Below, one piece after another: positions 4,477 through 64,000 of a stretch of 64,000 nucleotides of DNA. Within the stretch, counting starts at the first letter, position 1, and every line of letters begins with the position of its first letter. The stretch is from NCBI RefSeq assembly GCF_038595005.1, contig NZ_CP151997.1:2542001-2606000 (forward strand). Direction: 5' to 3'. The DNA comes from Chryseomicrobium sp. FSL W7-1435 (GTDB lineage: Bacteria > Bacillota > Bacilli > Bacillales_A > Planococcaceae). A program made the translations under genes and the position numbers. The notes beneath the pieces are model-generated. The model did not search any database. It saw only the letters and a program-made list of their open reading frames with translations, and had not been told where the DNA came from.

Positions 4477-6009
4477 ATGACACAGGATTTCACAAATGAA
4501 CCCTCATCCTATTGGCTGGATGGACCGCAGATTCCTGAATTTGCAGCTCTCTCGAGTTCAATCAATACCGATATTGTAATTGTAGGTGGCGGTATTGTGG
4601 GGATTGTAGCTGCATACCTACTGCGCAATTCAGGTCGCGCTGTCACCGTTTTAGAAGGTGGTCGTTTATTGCACGGTACCACTGGTTTTACGACAGCCAA
4701 ACTTTCTGTTCAGCATGGCTTGATCTACGATGAGCTTATTTCCACTTTCTCGGAGCAAGATGCACGAGCATACTACGAAGCGAATCGACAAGCGCTCGAC
4801 TGGGTTAAAGAAAAAACTGAGGAGCATTCTATTGAGTGCGGTCTAGAAACACGTCCTGCTTATTTATATGCAGAATCTTCTAGTGGTGAACAAAAAATTG
4901 AAAAAGAATTTACTGCTTATGAAAAGTTAGGGATTCCTGGTGCATCCCTGACGAAGAAGACGGATTTACCTTTTCCTATACGAACAGCTCTTAAGCTAGA
5001 GAATCAACTTCAGTTTCACCCTGTCTATTTTTTAACAGCACTTGTTAAAGAAGCACAGGCGGCCGGAGTTAAATTTTATGAAAACTCACGCGCCAAAACT
5101 GTCCATCTTCCTAGTCAGGTCGAGTTGGTAAACGGTCATAAGGTAGAGGCCCAACACGTCCTCGTCACCAGCCATTTCCCATTCAACGATTTTGAAGGCC
5201 TGTATTTCTCTCGCATGAGGGTAGAAAGAAGTTACGCTATGACGCTGCGTGGCAATGTGCAGGAAGACATGGGCATGTATATCAATGTGGAGTCACCGAC
5301 ACGCTCAATCCGCACGGTGCTAGATGCTTCAGGAGAACGGTTGCTTCAAATTGGAGGCCAAGGACATATTTCTGGTCGTCACGAAGAAAACACACGAACC
5401 AATTACGCGAAGCTACGTGACTTTGCATCAAGTTATTACGGAACATCTGAAGTGACGCATAACTGGTCCTCTCAAGACCTGATGCCACTTGATCACTTAC
5501 CTTATATTGGCCAAATGGTTACCGGGATGCCGAATGTATTTGTAGCGACTGGTTTTTCAAAGTGGGGTATGTCGAACGGAGTGGCTGCTGCCCACTTACT
5601 TGCAGACCTAGCTCTTGGTAAAGCCAATCCTTACGAAGAATTATTTTCGCCAACTCGCACAAAGCTACGTCCTAAAGGAATCGGCAACTTTATCAAAGAC
5701 AATGCGGGTGTCGCAAAAGAGCTGATTAAAGGCAAAGTGACGGGAGCCGAAGCGTCGCTTGATGAGCTTGGCCTGGATGAAGGGAAACTTGTTCGGGTCG
5801 ACGGACAGAAGCTTGCTGCTTATAAAGATCCGTCCGGAAATGTCACGTTTGTCAAACCTGCCTGCACACATATGGGTTGTGATGTCGCTTTCAATCAAGC
5901 GGAGCGGTCATGGGATTGCCCGTGCCACGGCTCACGATTCAGTTACCGGGGCGATATTTTAGAAGGACCCGCCACTGCCCCGCTTGAGCAAGTGCATCCG
6001 AAATCTTAG
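4477..6009 (+). CDS. yhfW: FAD-dependent oxidoreductase with C-terminal Rieske [2Fe-2S] domain (YhfW-like)
   Basis: The 510-residue protein has an N-terminal Rossmann FAD site (VIVGGGIVGIVAA, about residues 33-45), a DAO-type oxidoreductase body (VFVATGFSKWGMSNG) and a C-terminal Rieske domain. Cluster ligands are Cys463/His465 (CTHMGC) and Cys481/His484 (CPCHGS); Cys468 and Cys483 sit where Rieske proteins carry a disulfide. Length and order match YhfW of Bacillus subtilis, whose substrate I do not know. The ribosome site AGAAGGAGGAA is well placed. The gene ends exactly where the 125-bp tandem repeat starts, and its stop codon forms the first bases of that repeat, so the last residues may have been altered. 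Confidence 0.85.
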   Translation: MTQDFTNEPSSYWLDGPQIPEFAALSSSINTDIVIVGGGIVGIVAAYLLRNSGRAVTVLEGGRLLHGTTGFTTAKLSVQHGLIYDELISTFSEQDARAYYEANRQALDWVKEKTEEHSIECGLETRPAYLYAESSSGEQKIEKEFTAYEKLGIPGASLTKKTDLPFPIRTALKLENQLQFHPVYFLTALVKEAQAAGVKFYENSRAKTVHLPSQVELVNGHKVEAQHVLVTSHFPFNDFEGLYFSRMRVERSYAMTLRGNVQEDMGMYINVESPTRSIRTVLDASGERLLQIGGQGHISGRHEENTRTNYAKLRDFASSYYGTSEVTHNWSSQDLMPLDHLPYIGQMVTGMPNVFVATGFSKWGMSNGVAAAHLLADLALGKANPYEELFSPTRTKLRPKGIGNFIKDNAGVAKELIKGKVTGAEASLDELGLDEGKLVRVDGQKLAAYKDPSGNVTFVKPACTHMGCDVAFNQAERSWDCPCHGSRFSYRGDILEGPATAPLEQVHPKS

Positions 6010-6313
6010 ATGTGGAAGGCGTTCGCCCAGAAATGCTTCGGGAATCAAGCGTGCGCATAGAGGCGCTCTTTGCCTCTGTGTGTGCGGTTGATTTTCGAAT
6101 GTATTTCTAACGCCTGGAACTCGATTCCATTTAGATGTGGAAGGCGTTCGCCCAGAAATGCTTCGGGAATCAAGCGTGCGCATAGAGGCGCTCTTTGCCT
6201 CTGTGTGTGCGGTTGATTTTCGAATGTATTTCTAACGCCTGGAACTCGATTCCATTTAGATGTGGAAGGCGTTCTAACGCCTGGAACTCGATTGCGTTAG
6301 ATGTGGAAGGCGT
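6006..6313. repeat. Tandem 125-bp imperfectly palindromic repeat, 2 full copies plus partial units
   Basis: Full copies begin at 6006 and 6131, a third start is at 6256 (all TTAGATGTGGAAGGCG), and a short 41-bp derivative leads to a last partial start at 6297. The full copies read the same across their length. Each unit folds back on itself: AATCAAGCGTGCGCATAGAGGC-like bases pair imperfectly with GCCTCTGTGTGTGCGGTTGATT, and outer arms carry GGCGTT and AACGCC. No coding sense is apparent. The structure could be an extended 3' hairpin of the yhfW transcript or a palindromic repetitive element that duplicated. Confidence 0.85.
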
Positions 6314-6944: not shown

Positions 6945-7072
6945 TGAGCGAGCGTTCATGGGATGAAATCGGGATTTCATGAGACGCAAGCCGGCTTTCT
7001 TCGACATGCTGCATGGTTTCTTCGACATAATTGGATTTTAATGAGACCAAGTCGTTTTATGGAAACTAAACT
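6945..7072. repeat. Intergenic 21-bp-unit element, copy A
   Basis: About 130 bp: a head GTGAGCGAGCGTTCAT, five units whose GAT/GAC core lies at 6962, 6983, 7003, 7024 and 7045 (spacing 21, 20, 21, 21), and a tail GTCGTTTTATGGAAACTAA. Copies B (8.58 kb) and C (21.96 kb) show the same order and spacing. It lies upstream of one minus-strand gene and downstream of another. Confidence 0.85.
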
Positions 7073-8581: not shown

Positions 8582-8708
8582 GAGCGCTCGTTCATCGGAT
8601 GAAACTGGGATTTCATGAGACGAAAACCGATTTTCTTGGACATACCGCATGGTTTATTCGACATAATTGGATTTTAATGAGACGAAGTCATTTTATGGAA
8701 ACTAAACA
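8582..8708. repeat. Intergenic 21-bp-unit element, copy B
   Basis: Same architecture as copy A: head GTGAGCGCTCGTTCAT, cores at 8598, 8619, 8639, 8660 and 8681 (spacing 21, 20, 21, 21), tail AAGTCATTTTATGGAAACTA. It lies between the upstream end of the 86-residue membrane gene and the 3' end of the flotillin gene. An apparent short reading frame inside it is not considered real. Confidence 0.85.
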
Positions 8709-21962: not shown

Positions 21963-22090
21963 GTGAGCGGTCGTTCATGAGACGAACTTGTGATTTCTTG
22001 AGATGGAAATTAGTTTTATTCGACATACTACATGATTTATCGGACATGCTGGCATTTTAATGAGACGAAGTCGTTTTATGGAAACTAACC
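21963..22090. repeat. Intergenic 21-bp-unit element, copy C
   Basis: Head GTGAGCGGTCGTTCAT, cores GAC/GAT at 21981, 22002, 22022, 22043 and 22064 (spacing 21, 20, 21, 21), tail AAGTCGTTTTATGGAAACTA. Same order and spacing as copies A and B although many bases between cores differ. It lies upstream of maa. Confidence 0.85.
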
Positions 22091-25949: not shown

Positions 25950-26033
25950 CGAATATTTAGTAGCCGCTACTTTCACTTTATTGGCCACTCAAAGTACTCA
26001 ATTAGCCACAGATCCTATCATGGAAACTAAACA
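25950..26033. repeat. Degenerate 21-bp-unit element, copy E
   Basis: Three units with GCC cores at 25963, 25984 and 26005 (exactly 21 bp apart), ending in ATCATGGAAACTAAAC, the same tail as copies A-C. The tail overlaps the last codons of the minus-strand hypothetical gene at 26027. Confidence 0.65.
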
Positions 26034-34416: not shown

Positions 34417-34452
34417 AAAGAAGCGCTGGGGATTTTCCCCCGGCGCTTTTAC
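34417..34452. terminator. Terminator between convergent genes
   Basis: AAAAGCGCCGGGGG (minus reading) pairs with CCCCAGCGCTT; A and T runs flank both sides. Confidence 0.75.
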
Positions 34453-35177
34453 TTTCTCCAATACTGCGACCCATCGTTTGCACGGTCGAAATAACCGTAT
34501 TCTATCAAGTAACGACGTAGCGATACAAAATCCTCGTGCACACCTTTTAAAATCTCATTCATTTCCTTCTCTGTGTACTGCGTCTCCTGATCAAATCGCT
34601 TCACGATATGATTTAACAAAATCAATTTTCGCTTTTCTTTGCTAGGGATCGTGGATACTTTCCCATCCAATCCATCTTTAAAATAAGTCGCTAATACTTT
34701 TTCTGTTTCATCCGCTGTAATCGCATAACGCTCATCCACTTGTGTAGCCCCCTTATGAACATCAATATAATCATCATTAGAATTTAAATTTTTCATGATA
34801 GCAAGAAAAACTGCCGCTTGCCGTTCTTTTTCCCGAAGCTTAAACCGGTGTTGTCGAATCGTTGAAACACTGTTCGCAGAAGACCTCTTGACTACTTCCT
34901 TGTCCTCATGTCCTTCGTAAAACAGGAAGAGCATTTCTTTTTGTACCTCAGATAACCCTGTATATTTCTTATCGAGCGAAAGAAGCGCATGAAAGACGGA
35001 TTGATGCTCGTCAATGATGTGAAGCTCCATCTTCTTTTTCGCATCAAATAATCGCTCTCCCACTTGAAACACTTCCCCTTTCTGAAATGCTCCCTTACAA
35101 AAGATGCAGCTGAACCATTTTTCGTCTTCTTCGTATCCTCTTTGTAACACTTCAACTGAAACATCAAATTCAACCAC
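34449..35177 (-). CDS. DUF2087 domain protein with HTH, putative transcriptional regulator
   Basis: 242 residues. A central segment SEVQKEMLFLFYEGHEDKEV..SVSTIRQHRFKLREKE has a sigma-region-4-like HTH pattern; the C-terminus KRKLILLNHIVKRFDQ to RYLIEYGYFDRANDGSQYWRK is DUF2087. The N-terminus holds a CIFC pair. GTG at 35177 has GAGGTG eight bases upstream and is preferred over a TTG two codons earlier. Targets unknown. Confidence 0.75.
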   Translation of the reverse strand: MVEFDVSVEVLQRGYEEDEKWFSCIFCKGAFQKGEVFQVGERLFDAKKKMELHIIDEHQSVFHALLSLDKKYTGLSEVQKEMLFLFYEGHEDKEVVKRSSANSVSTIRQHRFKLREKERQAAVFLAIMKNLNSNDDYIDVHKGATQVDERYAITADETEKVLATYFKDGLDGKVSTIPSKEKRKLILLNHIVKRFDQETQYTEKEMNEILKGVHEDFVSLRRYLIEYGYFDRANDGSQYWRK

Positions 35178-35324
35178 TAACAAAGCACCTCATCATTTAT
35201 ATATTTATAAACAATACTATATATAGTTTTGTTAAAAGTAAACAAATAATAAAAATGTTTATTAATTTATAAATACTGATACTTTCATCTATCCTTTTAC
35301 TAGCTAGTAGGCTGGAAAGAATCC

Positions 35325-35505
35325 TCGTGCTTAAGCGACGATTAATCTGATTCTAGCGACGCAAATTCCAAATCTAGCGATGATAAATCTGATTCTAGCG
35401 ACGAATGCCCTCCATCACCTTGCTTAAGCGACGATTAATCCAATTCTAACGACGCAAATTCCAAATCTAACGACGATAAATCTGATTCTAGCGACGAATG
35501 CGCCC
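35325..35505. repeat. AGCGACG array: two 93-bp units of four 21-bp subrepeats
   Basis: AGCGACG-type cores lie at 35334, 35355, 35376, 35397 and again at 35427, 35448, 35469, 35490. Spacing is exactly 21 bp within each block; the blocks are offset by 93 bp. Linkers alternate between AATCTGATTCT and AAATTCCAAATCT. The array occupies the 440-bp gap between the DUF2087 and GNAT genes; I see no gene there. No cas genes are present, so it is not a CRISPR. Confidence 0.88.
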
Positions 35506-35587: not shown

Positions 35588-35620
35588 TAAAAACACTCTA
35601 AAAATTACATTAGAGTGTCA
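35588..35620 (-). terminator. Rho-independent terminator
   Basis: On minus, ACACTCTAA pairs with TTAGAGTGT and is followed by TTTTTATG. Confidence 0.82.
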
Positions 35621-36118
35621 AACAAACCTAGCCATCAGCACATCATCCATATACGTACCATCTGCAAGCTTATATTCTTTTAGCTTTCGTCCTTCTTCTA
35701 CAAAACCAAGTTTCTTATAGAGCTCAATGGCTCGGGTATTCGATGCAAAAGTAAACAAGGAAATTTTCTCAATCTCCGGGTGAGCACTCGCCCAATTAAT
35801 CAGTTCCTGGACCAACTGCTTCCCGTAACCTTTCCCGCGGGCTTCCGGCTTGATCATGACGCCAAACTTCCCTGTGTGACGCGTTTTCATCCGATCATCC
35901 ACTTGAAAAACTAGCCATCCCACCACTTCGCCCACTTCCTCAGCGACAAAGAGCACTTCACTCGGATGATCCTGTTTTGCTTGAATCCAGGCTCGCTGCC
36001 CTTCAACCGTCTGACGGAACTCCTCGATACTCGAAACAAAATAAATCTCTTCTTTTAAAACTTCTTGCTGGATAACTAACATGGCTTCCGCATCTTCCGG
36101 AACTGCTAACCGAATCAC
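35618..36118 (-). CDS. GNAT family N-acetyltransferase
   Basis: 166 residues; motif A VMIKPEARGKGYGKQLVQEL and motif B NTRAIELYKKLGFVEEGR are typical GNAT. GTG at 36118 lies eight bases after AAGGAG; an in-frame GTG three codons earlier overlaps that site. Substrate unknown; RimJ/YkkB-like by general shape only. Confidence 0.85.
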   Translation of the reverse strand: MIRLAVPEDAEAMLVIQQEVLKEEIYFVSSIEEFRQTVEGQRAWIQAKQDHPSEVLFVAEEVGEVVGWLVFQVDDRMKTRHTGKFGVMIKPEARGKGYGKQLVQELINWASAHPEIEKISLFTFASNTRAIELYKKLGFVEEGRKLKEYKLADGTYMDDVLMARFV

Positions 36119-36130
36119 TGAACCCACTCC

Positions 36131-44699: not shown

Positions 44700-44792
44700 G
44701 TTTAGAGCCCTGATGGGTTGATTTAGCGACCGTGTTGGTTCCATTAACGACCGAGTAAGTTCACTTAACGCCCCAAATGATTTTATGGAAAC
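44700..44792. repeat. Degenerate 21-bp-unit element, copy D
   Basis: Cores at 44704 (AGAGCC), 44725 (AGCGAC), 44746 (AACGAC) and 44767 (AACGCC) are exactly 21 bp apart and are followed by ATGATTTTATGGAAACTAAT, the tail of copies A-C. Its cores resemble the AGCGACG array at 35.3 kb, linking the two repeat types. Confidence 0.75.
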
Positions 44793-44806
44793 TAATCATT
44801 CCACGC

Positions 44807-46086: not shown

Positions 46087-46848
46087 ATGACGAAAAAATG
46101 GATGTACTTACTCGCCACTTCCCTACTTACTCTTTTCCTTGCTGCTTGCCAACAAGAAGAAGCGAATGAAGCAGAAGCTGACGAAGCAACACCCGAGACA
46201 GAAGAAACTGTAGAAGAAGAGACAGTTACTGAAGAAGAAGAGACAGTTACTGAAGAAGAATCTGACCACGCGCATGACCATGATCACGCACACGGTGAAA
46301 TGTCTGAAAAAGACCAACAAATCTACAAAGGGTATTTTGAAGACAGCGATATCGGAAACCGCCCCCTTTCCAACTGGGCTGGCGATTGGCAGTCTGTTTA
46401 TCCCTATTTACTTGACGGAACATTAGATGAAGTATTTGAACACAAAGCTGAAGAAGGCGACATGACAGCTGAAGAATACAAAGACTATTACACGACTGGG
46501 TACATGACGGATGTTGACCGCATTGAAATCAAAGCGGATATCGTTACGTTCCATAAAGGCGATGAGTCAGTTACTGGCCGCTACAAATACGACGGTTACG
46601 AGATTTTGACATACGAAAAAGGAAATCGCGGTGTACGTTTTATCTACAAGCAGATGGATGAGAATTCGGATGCACCTGCTTATATGCAGTTCAGTGACCA
46701 CATTATCAACGATAAAGTCTCACATCATTACCATTTATATTTTGGTGACGATCGCGCCGCTCTTCTTGAAGAGTTAGAAAACTGGCCGACCTATTATCAT
46801 TCTGACCTTACTGGCGAAGAGATTGCTGAAGAGATGATTGCGCACTAA
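46087..46848 (+). CDS. zinT: ZinT-domain zinc-binding lipoprotein
   Basis: 253 residues: lipobox LFLAAC (Cys21), an acidic linker with short internal repeats (EEETVTEEE twice), a His-rich stretch HAHDHDHAH, then a ZinT domain (QIYKGYFEDSDIGNRPLSNWAGDWQ, TYYHSDLT and HHYHLYFG metal site). Scavenges zinc at the cell surface, probably passing it to an AdcA/ZnuA-type importer encoded elsewhere. AAAGGAG site; double Zur box upstream. Confidence 0.9.
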   Translation: MTKKWMYLLATSLLTLFLAACQQEEANEAEADEATPETEETVEEETVTEEEETVTEEESDHAHDHDHAHGEMSEKDQQIYKGYFEDSDIGNRPLSNWAGDWQSVYPYLLDGTLDEVFEHKAEEGDMTAEEYKDYYTTGYMTDVDRIEIKADIVTFHKGDESVTGRYKYDGYEILTYEKGNRGVRFIYKQMDENSDAPAYMQFSDHIINDKVSHHYHLYFGDDRAALLEELENWPTYYHSDLTGEEIAEEMIAH

Positions 46849-48511: not shown

Positions 48512-48797
48512 CCTTTTGGGCACAAAAAAAGCCCTCATCGATTGACTCGATTAGGACGAACATGTCGTGGTACCACCTAAATTCGCACAAGACTCACATC
48601 TTATGCCTCTGCCAGTACGTGTACATACTGCTGCTGTTGTAACGAGTGCACGTCTCGGCGCAGCCTACTAAACAGTTCGGTGCGCAGCTCAAAGGCCATT
48701 TTCACTCCAGGTCATCTGCTTCATTTCCACCATCAGAAGCTCTCTATAAGAATTGCTGAACTTACTTTCCTTCTCATCGCTTGTTTTCAATTGTGAC
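48512..48797 (-). ncRNA. T-box leader (Met specifier) upstream of metG
   Basis: On the minus strand the leader holds AATTTAGGTGGTACCACG (T-box, 48566-48583), a terminator made of CCTAATCGA / TCGATGAGG followed by GCTTTTTTT (48523-48555), and a Stem I with an AUG triplet at 48699-48697 in GAAAATGGCC, suitable as the Met specifier. Uncharged tRNA-Met would favour antitermination. A -10 TATTCT (48804-48799) and -35 TTGTGC (48827-48822), 17 bp apart, place the start near 48792. Confidence 0.9.
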
Positions 48798-61911: not shown

Positions 61912-64000
61912 AAAAACGAAGGAAACAGAAGACAAAACGGTCTACCGGGTTGAGGGCTTTTCGTGTGCGAATTGCGCCGGGAAATTCGAGAAGAACGTCA
62001 AACAGATTCCCGGTGTCCAGGATGCCAAAGTGAACTTTGGGGCTTCGAAAATTGCGGTCTACGGCGAGGCGACGATCGAGGAACTGGAAAAAGCCGGCGC
62101 TTTCGAGAATTTGAAGGTCGCACCGGAAAAACCGAAACGCCAGGCGGCTCCTGAAGTGACCGTCGAAGACAAAAATGTCTTCCGGGTCGAAGGCTTTACA
62201 TGCGCGAACTGCGCCGGGAAGTTTGAGAACAACGTCAAGCAGATCCCCGGTGTCCAGGATGCCAAAGTGAACTTCGGGGCTTCAAAAATTTCCGTTTACG
62301 GGGCAGCGACCATCGACGAATTGGAGAAAGCCGGTGCGTTTGAAAACTTGAAGGTGGCGCCTGAAATTACAGGACGTCCAGCTATCACGAATACCGGAAC
62401 CGAAAAAGCGCCAGCTCGAACAGAGAAGAAAGTGCCGTTCTACCAAAAGCACAGCACCTTGCTCTACTCCACCCTCTTGATCGTGTTCGGCTACATTTCC
62501 CAGTTCGTCAACGGCGAAGACAACCTGATGACGTCGCTCCTGTTTGTGGCGGCGATTGTCATTGGCGGGTACTCGCTCTTCAAAGTCGGCTTCCAGAACC
62601 TGATTCGCCTGGATTTCGACATGAAGACCCTCATGACCGTTGCGGTCATCGGGGCAGCCTTTATCGGGGAATGGGCGGAAGCGGCCATCGTGGTCATCCT
62701 CTTTGCGATCAGTGAAGCACTGGAACGCTATTCCATGGACCGGGCGAGACAATCCATCCGTTCGTTGATGGACATCGCTCCGAAAGAGGCACTGGTCCGG
62801 CGGAATGGCCAAGAACAGTTAATTTCGGTAGACGACATTGTGGTGGGCGACACCATGATTGTCAGACCGGGACAGAAGATTGCGATGGACGGCACGGTGA
62901 CCAACGGGTATTCGGCGGTCAATCAGGCGGCCATCACCGGGGAATCCGTGCCGGTCGCCAAAACGGTGAATGATGATGTCTTCGCCGGTACGCTGAACGA
63001 AGAAGGTTTGCTGGAAGTCCAAATCACCAAACTGGTCGAAGACACGACCATTGCGAAAATCATTCACCTGGTCGAAGAAGCGCAGGGCGAACGCGCCCCT
63101 TCCCAGGCATTTGTCGATAAGTTTGCGAAGTACTACACACCGATCATCATGGCGGTTGCCGCACTTGTCGCCATTGTCCCGCCCCTTCTGTTCGATGCTA
63201 GCTGGGAAACCTGGGTCTATCAAGGACTGGCTGTGCTCGTAGTAGGCTGTCCGTGTGCATTGGTCATTTCGACGCCGATCTCAATCGTGTCCGCCATCGG
63301 GAATGCCGCGAAAAAAGGCGTGCTGATCAAAGGCGGCGTATACTTGGAGGAAATGGGTGCGCTGAAGGCCATCGCATTTGACAAGACCGGCACCCTGACC
63401 AAAGGGGTTCCCGTCGTAACGGATTTTGAAGTCATGAACAAGCAAGTAAACGAAAAAGAGCTGCTTTCCATCGTGACTGCGCTGGAGTACCGCTCGCAGC
63501 ATCCCCTTGCCTCCGCCATCATGAAAAAAGCGGACGCAGAGAACATTTCATATTCTTCGGTATTGGTCGAGGACTTCTCTTCCATTACCGGAAAAGGGAT
63601 TAAGGGAACCGTAGAAGGGATCACGTACTACATCGGTAGCCCGATTCTGTTCAACGAGTTAGGCGCGGCGAGCCCCAATGCGAACTTGGAACAGACCGTA
63701 ACGGCCCTGCAAAACCAGGGCAAGACCGCGATGATCATCGGGACGGAACAACACATTTTGGCGGTCATCGCCGTGGCCGATGAAGTCCGGGACTCCAGCA
63801 AGGAAGTCATCCAGAAGCTGCACGACATGGGCATCAAGAAGACGATCATGCTGACGGGTGACAACAAAGCGACCGGTCAGGCCATCGGCCGAGAGGTCGG
63901 CGTCACCGAAATCCAGGCCGAGCTGATGCCGGAGGACAAATTGAATGTCATCAAACGCTTACGGGCCGAGTACGGCAAGGTGGCGATGATTGGAGACGGC
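61904..64000 (+). CDS. cadA: Cadmium-translocating P1B ATPase CadA (partial, runs off the end)
   Basis: 699 codons are present. Two near-identical HMA domains (CANC at 21-24 and 100-103, period 79 residues), then membrane helices, CPC in [21 protein letters not shown] and the window ends at IGDG (start of GDGVNDAPA). Exports Cd2+, Zn2+ or Pb2+. TTG start at 61904 overlaps cadC by 8 nt with AAGGAGG nine bases upstream. The C-terminal helix pair lies beyond the window. Confidence 0.95.

Follow-up and report, generated by a model that had tools for sequence, protein, structure and literature searches.

STAR and REP elements are short interspersed intergenic repeats whose functions are unclear. 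Iterons are known to bind protein cooperatively through direct repeats about two helical turns apart, and repeated binding sites at a similar distance are a known design at the ends of Tn7- and Mu-like transposons. The STAR elements of Staphylococcus aureus are interspersed intergenic direct repeats of unknown function (PMC3532100). REP/BIME elements also are intergenic, lie mostly downstream of genes, occupy convergent or co-directional gene pairs, and are built from several modules (PMC3733652). The literature searched, which covered few subscription journals, contains no description of gene-end arrays in which conserved words of 7–9 letters recur at 21-bp spacing. Such an array lies at positions 35334 to 35496 (plus strand) of the 64,000-nucleotide stretch analysed here (the window), which comes from a 2.71-Mb Chryseomicrobium chromosome (Planococcaceae).

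This array, hereafter type A, contains eight AGCGACG-like cores in two blocks of four. Block 1 (35334–35403) has cores starting at 35334, 35355, 35376, and 35397; block 2 (35427–35496) has cores at 35427, 35448, 35469, and 35490. Between them is a 23-bp linker (35404–35426, plus strand), nearly free in sequence but invariant in length across the loci compared. The core-to-core intervals (21, 21, 21, 30, 21, 21, 21) reproduce exactly those given in the first-pass annotation. Its core word holds at five of the eight sites, with one mismatch at each of the other three (AGCGATG once, AACGACG twice). Its "exact 21-bp subrepeats" do not survive: the six 21-mers inside the array are only 62–95% identical (mean 77%), and exactness resides in the spacing alone. 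The two 70-bp blocks match at 65 of 70 positions with an offset of 93 bp, and Tandem Repeats Finder reports a period of 93 with 93% matches and a score of 313. All eight positions of the lattice are filled in the real sequence, against at most two in 20 shuffles of the window.

The array sits between the 3' end of a GNAT acetyltransferase gene (35618–36127, minus strand) and the 5' end of a DUF2087-domain gene (34449–35183, minus strand), the latter about 150 bp away. An intrinsic terminator of the GNAT gene (35619–35592, minus strand) faces the array, which is positioned beyond it in the direction of GNAT transcription; the cores read antisense to that gene. The array had been described as filling the gap before this terminator, but 95 bp separate the last core from the terminator end.

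Cores and spacers have changed at different rates. With one vote per locus, information content in type A is 1.79 bits per core position, 0.79 per position of the 21-bp spacers, and 0.43 in the 23-bp linker, against a shuffled-column baseline of 0.22. In C. aureum, whose counterpart of the DUF2087 neighbour shares 90% identity, the orthologous array departs from that in the window at 3 of 56 positions within cores and 57 of 130 within spacers; the latter number is an upper bound, as the two arrays can also be aligned with paired compensating gaps. At the dGK-dnaX locus, the orthologous arrays differ at 7 of 56 core and 39 of 130 spacer positions. (Because of duplication within a locus, these counts are less than fully independent.) Around the array in the window, the flanking sequence shows 13 alignment gaps for 69 substitutions, yet every interval length in the array is kept, and a single interval change, of one base, is seen across ten type A loci (at L134). 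Core identity and spacing therefore look constrained, whereas spacer sequence does not appear to be.

Pattern and similarity searches place the 93-bp four-core module (21+21+21+30) at five loci in the window genome and five in C. aureum. Counting degenerate in-phase cores, core numbers are 8, 8, 8, 16, and 28 in the former and 8, 8, 12, 12, and 16 in the latter. The count is a multiple of four at all ten loci, with a partial module in addition at the 16-core locus of the window genome. At the window locus itself there are two blocks in the window genome but three in its C. aureum counterpart (L038). Gain and loss therefore involve entire blocks: the type A module grows and shrinks by whole-module duplication inside a locus.

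Outside Chryseomicrobium, eight species of a second Planococcaceae genus (g14) carry AGCGWCG pairs at 21 bp in abundance. Elsewhere they are near control level (261 family genomes, 399 class genomes), and the single pairs in two further genera (G018, G069) apparently lie in coding regions. The g14 genomes also have spacings of 19 and 20 bp, and many of their arrays come after the terminator of an upstream gene that reads in the core's own direction, the reverse of the arrangement in Chryseomicrobium; the two AGCGACG families are therefore only possible homologues. Several g14 arrays (L135–L143) begin 20–60 bp past the upstream gene's terminator, and arrays of this set mix cores in phase (AGCGACGGAAAG, AGTCGTGGATAG, AAAGCTGGATAG).

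The first-pass annotation had suspected a wider superfamily, and the array indeed is part of a larger class of 21-bp arrays with other copies in the same window. An inventory drawn from pattern searches contains about 40–50 intergenic elements per genome in which 4–5 units of 21 bp precede a common 3' tail, ATWTTATGGAAACTAA. A search for this tail (ATTTTATGGAAACYAA, one mismatch) returns 40, 52, 11, and 8 matches in four Chryseomicrobium genomes, with at most one in the control. Nearly all tail loci read have the 4–5 units ahead of the tail; the matches that are not elements are L294, L295, L308, L314, and L326. At least eight kinds of core occur: TTARCGMCC; TTCATGAGACG/TTATTCGACATAA; TTTGTGCCC; TCTAGAACAAGTAA; TCTTCTACCGAAA; ATTCTGACGTTAGC; TTCGRCGATTGTGTCG; and TATTGGCCA. 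Arrays of TTARCGMCC cores (type B) terminate in the constant tail. Type A does not have it and instead has a weak tail of its own, as read by eye. Among the loci read outside Chryseomicrobium, no tail match is associated with an array.

Six elements are seen in the window, all on the plus strand. Besides the type A array, these are a type B element at 44724–44796, with cores at 21 bp and its tail at 44774–44796; three type C elements with tails, their starts approximate, at 6953–7070, 8589–8706, and 21972–22089; and a degenerate element of the TATTGGCCA kind with a variant tail, TCATGGAAACTAA, at 25954–26031. Elements of types C and F recur with the same unit order, and thus have been copied as wholes. 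Some slots hold more than one whole element head to tail, all in one orientation and sometimes of mixed type: L287 (2021, 2231), L298 (2070, 2302), L244, and L318. Many elements have, at their head or following the tail, a palindromic module resembling AAGTTCTTGCTAGCAAGAACTT (L281, L285, L299, L318, and others), making modular mosaics. A perfectly repeated 125-bp unit (2.2 copies, 100% identical) at window positions 6006–6313 contains TTAGATGTGGAAGGCG modules, which also lie beside several 21-bp elements.

The spacing extends beyond the genus. An unbiased scan examined 20-kb blocks at unselected positions, together with the window, for any tandem period of 12–40 bp in intergenic DNA. In Planococcaceae (127 kb of intergenic DNA), period 21 accounts for 10 matches against 8 for the 28 other periods together; at the same threshold, other families (106 kb) have none at period 21. 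A looser threshold, with its higher background, gives 13 against 63 over 28 periods in Planococcaceae and 4 against 17 in other families. The cores of these arrays vary by genus (GTTGAGCGAATTT, GTTAATRGACAA, and TTTCGATAAAA are examples), and what stays constant is the 21 bp, or about two helical turns. That related bacteria share this spacing while using different words suggests a spacing-dependent job. It also provides a simple search rule for a whole bacterial family: a 21-bp lattice in intergenic DNA.

Location is the other constant. The tail-side gene has its 3' end toward the element at 66 of 85 tail-bearing copies; 41 of the 85 are flanked by convergent genes, 5 by divergent ones. That gene's terminator is within 130 bp of the tail in 45 of 80 cases, against 13.4 in shuffled sequence (these orientation and terminator statistics rest on a simple ORF and hairpin caller). 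Type A copies mostly face gene ends. Moreover, different core types use the same slot in different species. Downstream of dGK is type A in the window genome, type B in G002, and in C. aureum both, with A ahead of B; downstream of FMN_bind_2 is type B in three species and type A in C. aureum; and downstream of clpP is type C in the window genome and a AGCGACGG array in a g14 species. The neighbouring proteins at these shared slots are 86–99% identical. Twenty proteins flanking tail-bearing elements are functionally unrelated to each other, and mostly metabolic or housekeeping.

How do these arrays compare with described elements? Like STAR, they are intergenic direct repeats with locus-specific spacers, and they share with it a short conserved motif, a terminal signature on one side, and copy number that varies from locus to locus (PMC3532100). 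They differ in dimensions (the STAR core is 14 bp and GC-rich, with spacers of 40–44 bp, compared with the 21-bp spacing here), in having many exchangeable core types with one tail, and in sharing slots between species, whereas no STAR neighbourhood is common to two staphylococcal species (PMC3532100). The window contains no match to the STAR core T(G/A/T)TGTTG(G/T)GGCCC(C/A) at one mismatch or fewer, and none to the STAR start signature GTGGGACAGAAATGAT at three or fewer. Like REP/BIME, the tail-bearing types prefer gene 3' ends and convergent regions, type A mostly faces gene ends, the build is multi-modular, and RAYT-like genes exist in the genus. The repeat unit differs in lacking a palindrome: no inverted repeat or palindromic unit of 20–40 bp is present in the array. 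Mobilisation by RAYT also was considered and rejected. Each of the four Chryseomicrobium genomes has solo Y1 (RAYT-like) transposase genes (L353–L358), and GGTGCCTGTCACC/GTGCCTGTCCCC repeats flank some of them; it is GGTGCCTGTCACC-type repeats, not 21-bp arrays, that lie beside these genes. With the STAR core and signature, the REP palindrome, and the RAYT association all absent, the 21-bp arrays resemble STAR or BIME in working but are members of neither.

The reading we prefer, with a probability of roughly 0.48, is that the window array belongs to an interspersed, non-coding kind of intergenic element typical of Planococcaceae, in which the cores are putative phased protein sites and the array a putative gene-end boundary. 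The data show the family itself, its spacing, the conservation of cores over spacers, the position at gene ends, and the use of one slot by different core types; the binding and boundary roles are inferred. The element is STAR/BIME-like, and its cores probably are such sites, as judged from conservation and spacing. Conserved cores exactly 21 bp apart would present sites for a DNA-binding protein on one helix face within a block. Where transcription units end, the bound array might then form a boundary that restrains read-through or handles supercoils, in line with a hypothesis put forward for REP/BIME repeats. The first-pass suggestion of a protein-binding array is compatible with the conservation of cores over spacers and with the fixed 21-bp spacing. 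Several features count against this explanation. The 30-bp step corresponds to 2.86 turns, so that successive blocks are on different helical faces. The g14 arrays include the 19- and 20-bp spacings, and many of them are oriented the other way relative to the nearby terminator. Furthermore, a single binding protein shared by all is hard to reconcile with radically different cores at an identical spacing. A stronger version, which we consider unlikely, is a lineage-wide system of gene-end boundary arrays in the Planococcaceae. Its fixed elements would be the 21-bp spacing and the post-terminator slot alone, with one core word replaced by another from lineage to lineage, and even in orthologous slots, as though every core type had a cognate DNA-binding protein. 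The conserved feature is separable here: the core word differs by type, and between sister species within one slot, but spacing and location persist. Function thereby becomes testable by swap or deletion of a defined array of 100–200 bp.

The main rival is a real, if doubtful, possibility: the arrays may be intergenic satellite DNA, selfish or neutral and without host function, which spreads through recombination and slippage, is tolerated where it sits behind terminators, and is homogenised by concerted evolution. Blocks do duplicate within a locus, whole elements are stacked and dispersed, and copy number is strongly species-dependent (8 to 52 tail matches). The unrelated neighbouring genes fit as well, and harmless insertions survive in promoter-free slots. 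However, a satellite does not readily account for orthologous arrays that retain their cores while spacers turn over, for interval lengths kept although the flanks gain gaps, or for a shared 21-bp period in genera whose cores are unrelated.

Alternatively, each array could be the transposase-binding end of a non-autonomous mobile element mobilised in trans, with multiple sites as in Tn7- or Mu-like transposons. Dispersed copies, a constant tail with a type-specific head, and repeated sites spaced like those of known multi-site ends all recommend this reading, but we regard it as quite unlikely. Neither a paired end nor a terminal inverted repeat is seen; no transposase is encoded among the 3 proteins at the window locus or the 20 proteins flanking the tail-bearing elements sampled; RAYT genes bear other repeats; and type A has no match in phage or plasmid records. 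The tail pattern is likewise absent from viral contigs. (Three AGCGACG cores at 21-bp spacing occur in six IMG/VR contigs, L339–L344, possibly by chance or in coding sequence.) Relatives were checked for the array inside an insertion sequence or a coding repeat, and it was in neither. In an empty-site comparison of the window locus, the stretch comprising the array together with half the DUF2087 gene had no match in G002, and in G003 the match was limited to the GNAT gene.

The two other interpretations raised at first pass, a 3' RNA zipper and iterons, fare worse. An RNA element, whether a zipper, an sRNA, or a transcript-end structure, would gain from the array's closeness to a terminator. 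It is nevertheless very improbable: neither strand folds better than shuffles (z of +1.65 and +0.62), the array lies past the terminator with its cores antisense to the gene, and Rfam has no match at the site. (The sole Rfam match in the window is a T-box leader RNA, RF00230, at 48549–48786 on the minus strand, with 111.7 bits.) Iterons of a plasmid or phage, like a decayed coding repeat, are scarcely credible: direct repeats at about two helical turns and spacings all divisible by three are what one would expect, but the arrays are chromosomal and at numerous loci, no replication initiator gene adjoins the one in the window (its neighbours are GNAT, DUF2087, and acetamidase/formamidase), and no frame is open across all ten type A loci, the neighbouring genes and the stops in all six frames of the array together ruling out both at this locus.

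Two further tandem repeats in the window are coding in appearance. At 46207–46260, a 21-bp repeat, ACTGAAGAAGAAGAGACAGTT (96% matches), reads as an acidic coding repeat and is probably unrelated to the intergenic arrays. A 237-bp tandem duplication lies at 61928–62366, and its consensus looks like a heavy-metal-associated (HMA) domain (VEGFTCANC).
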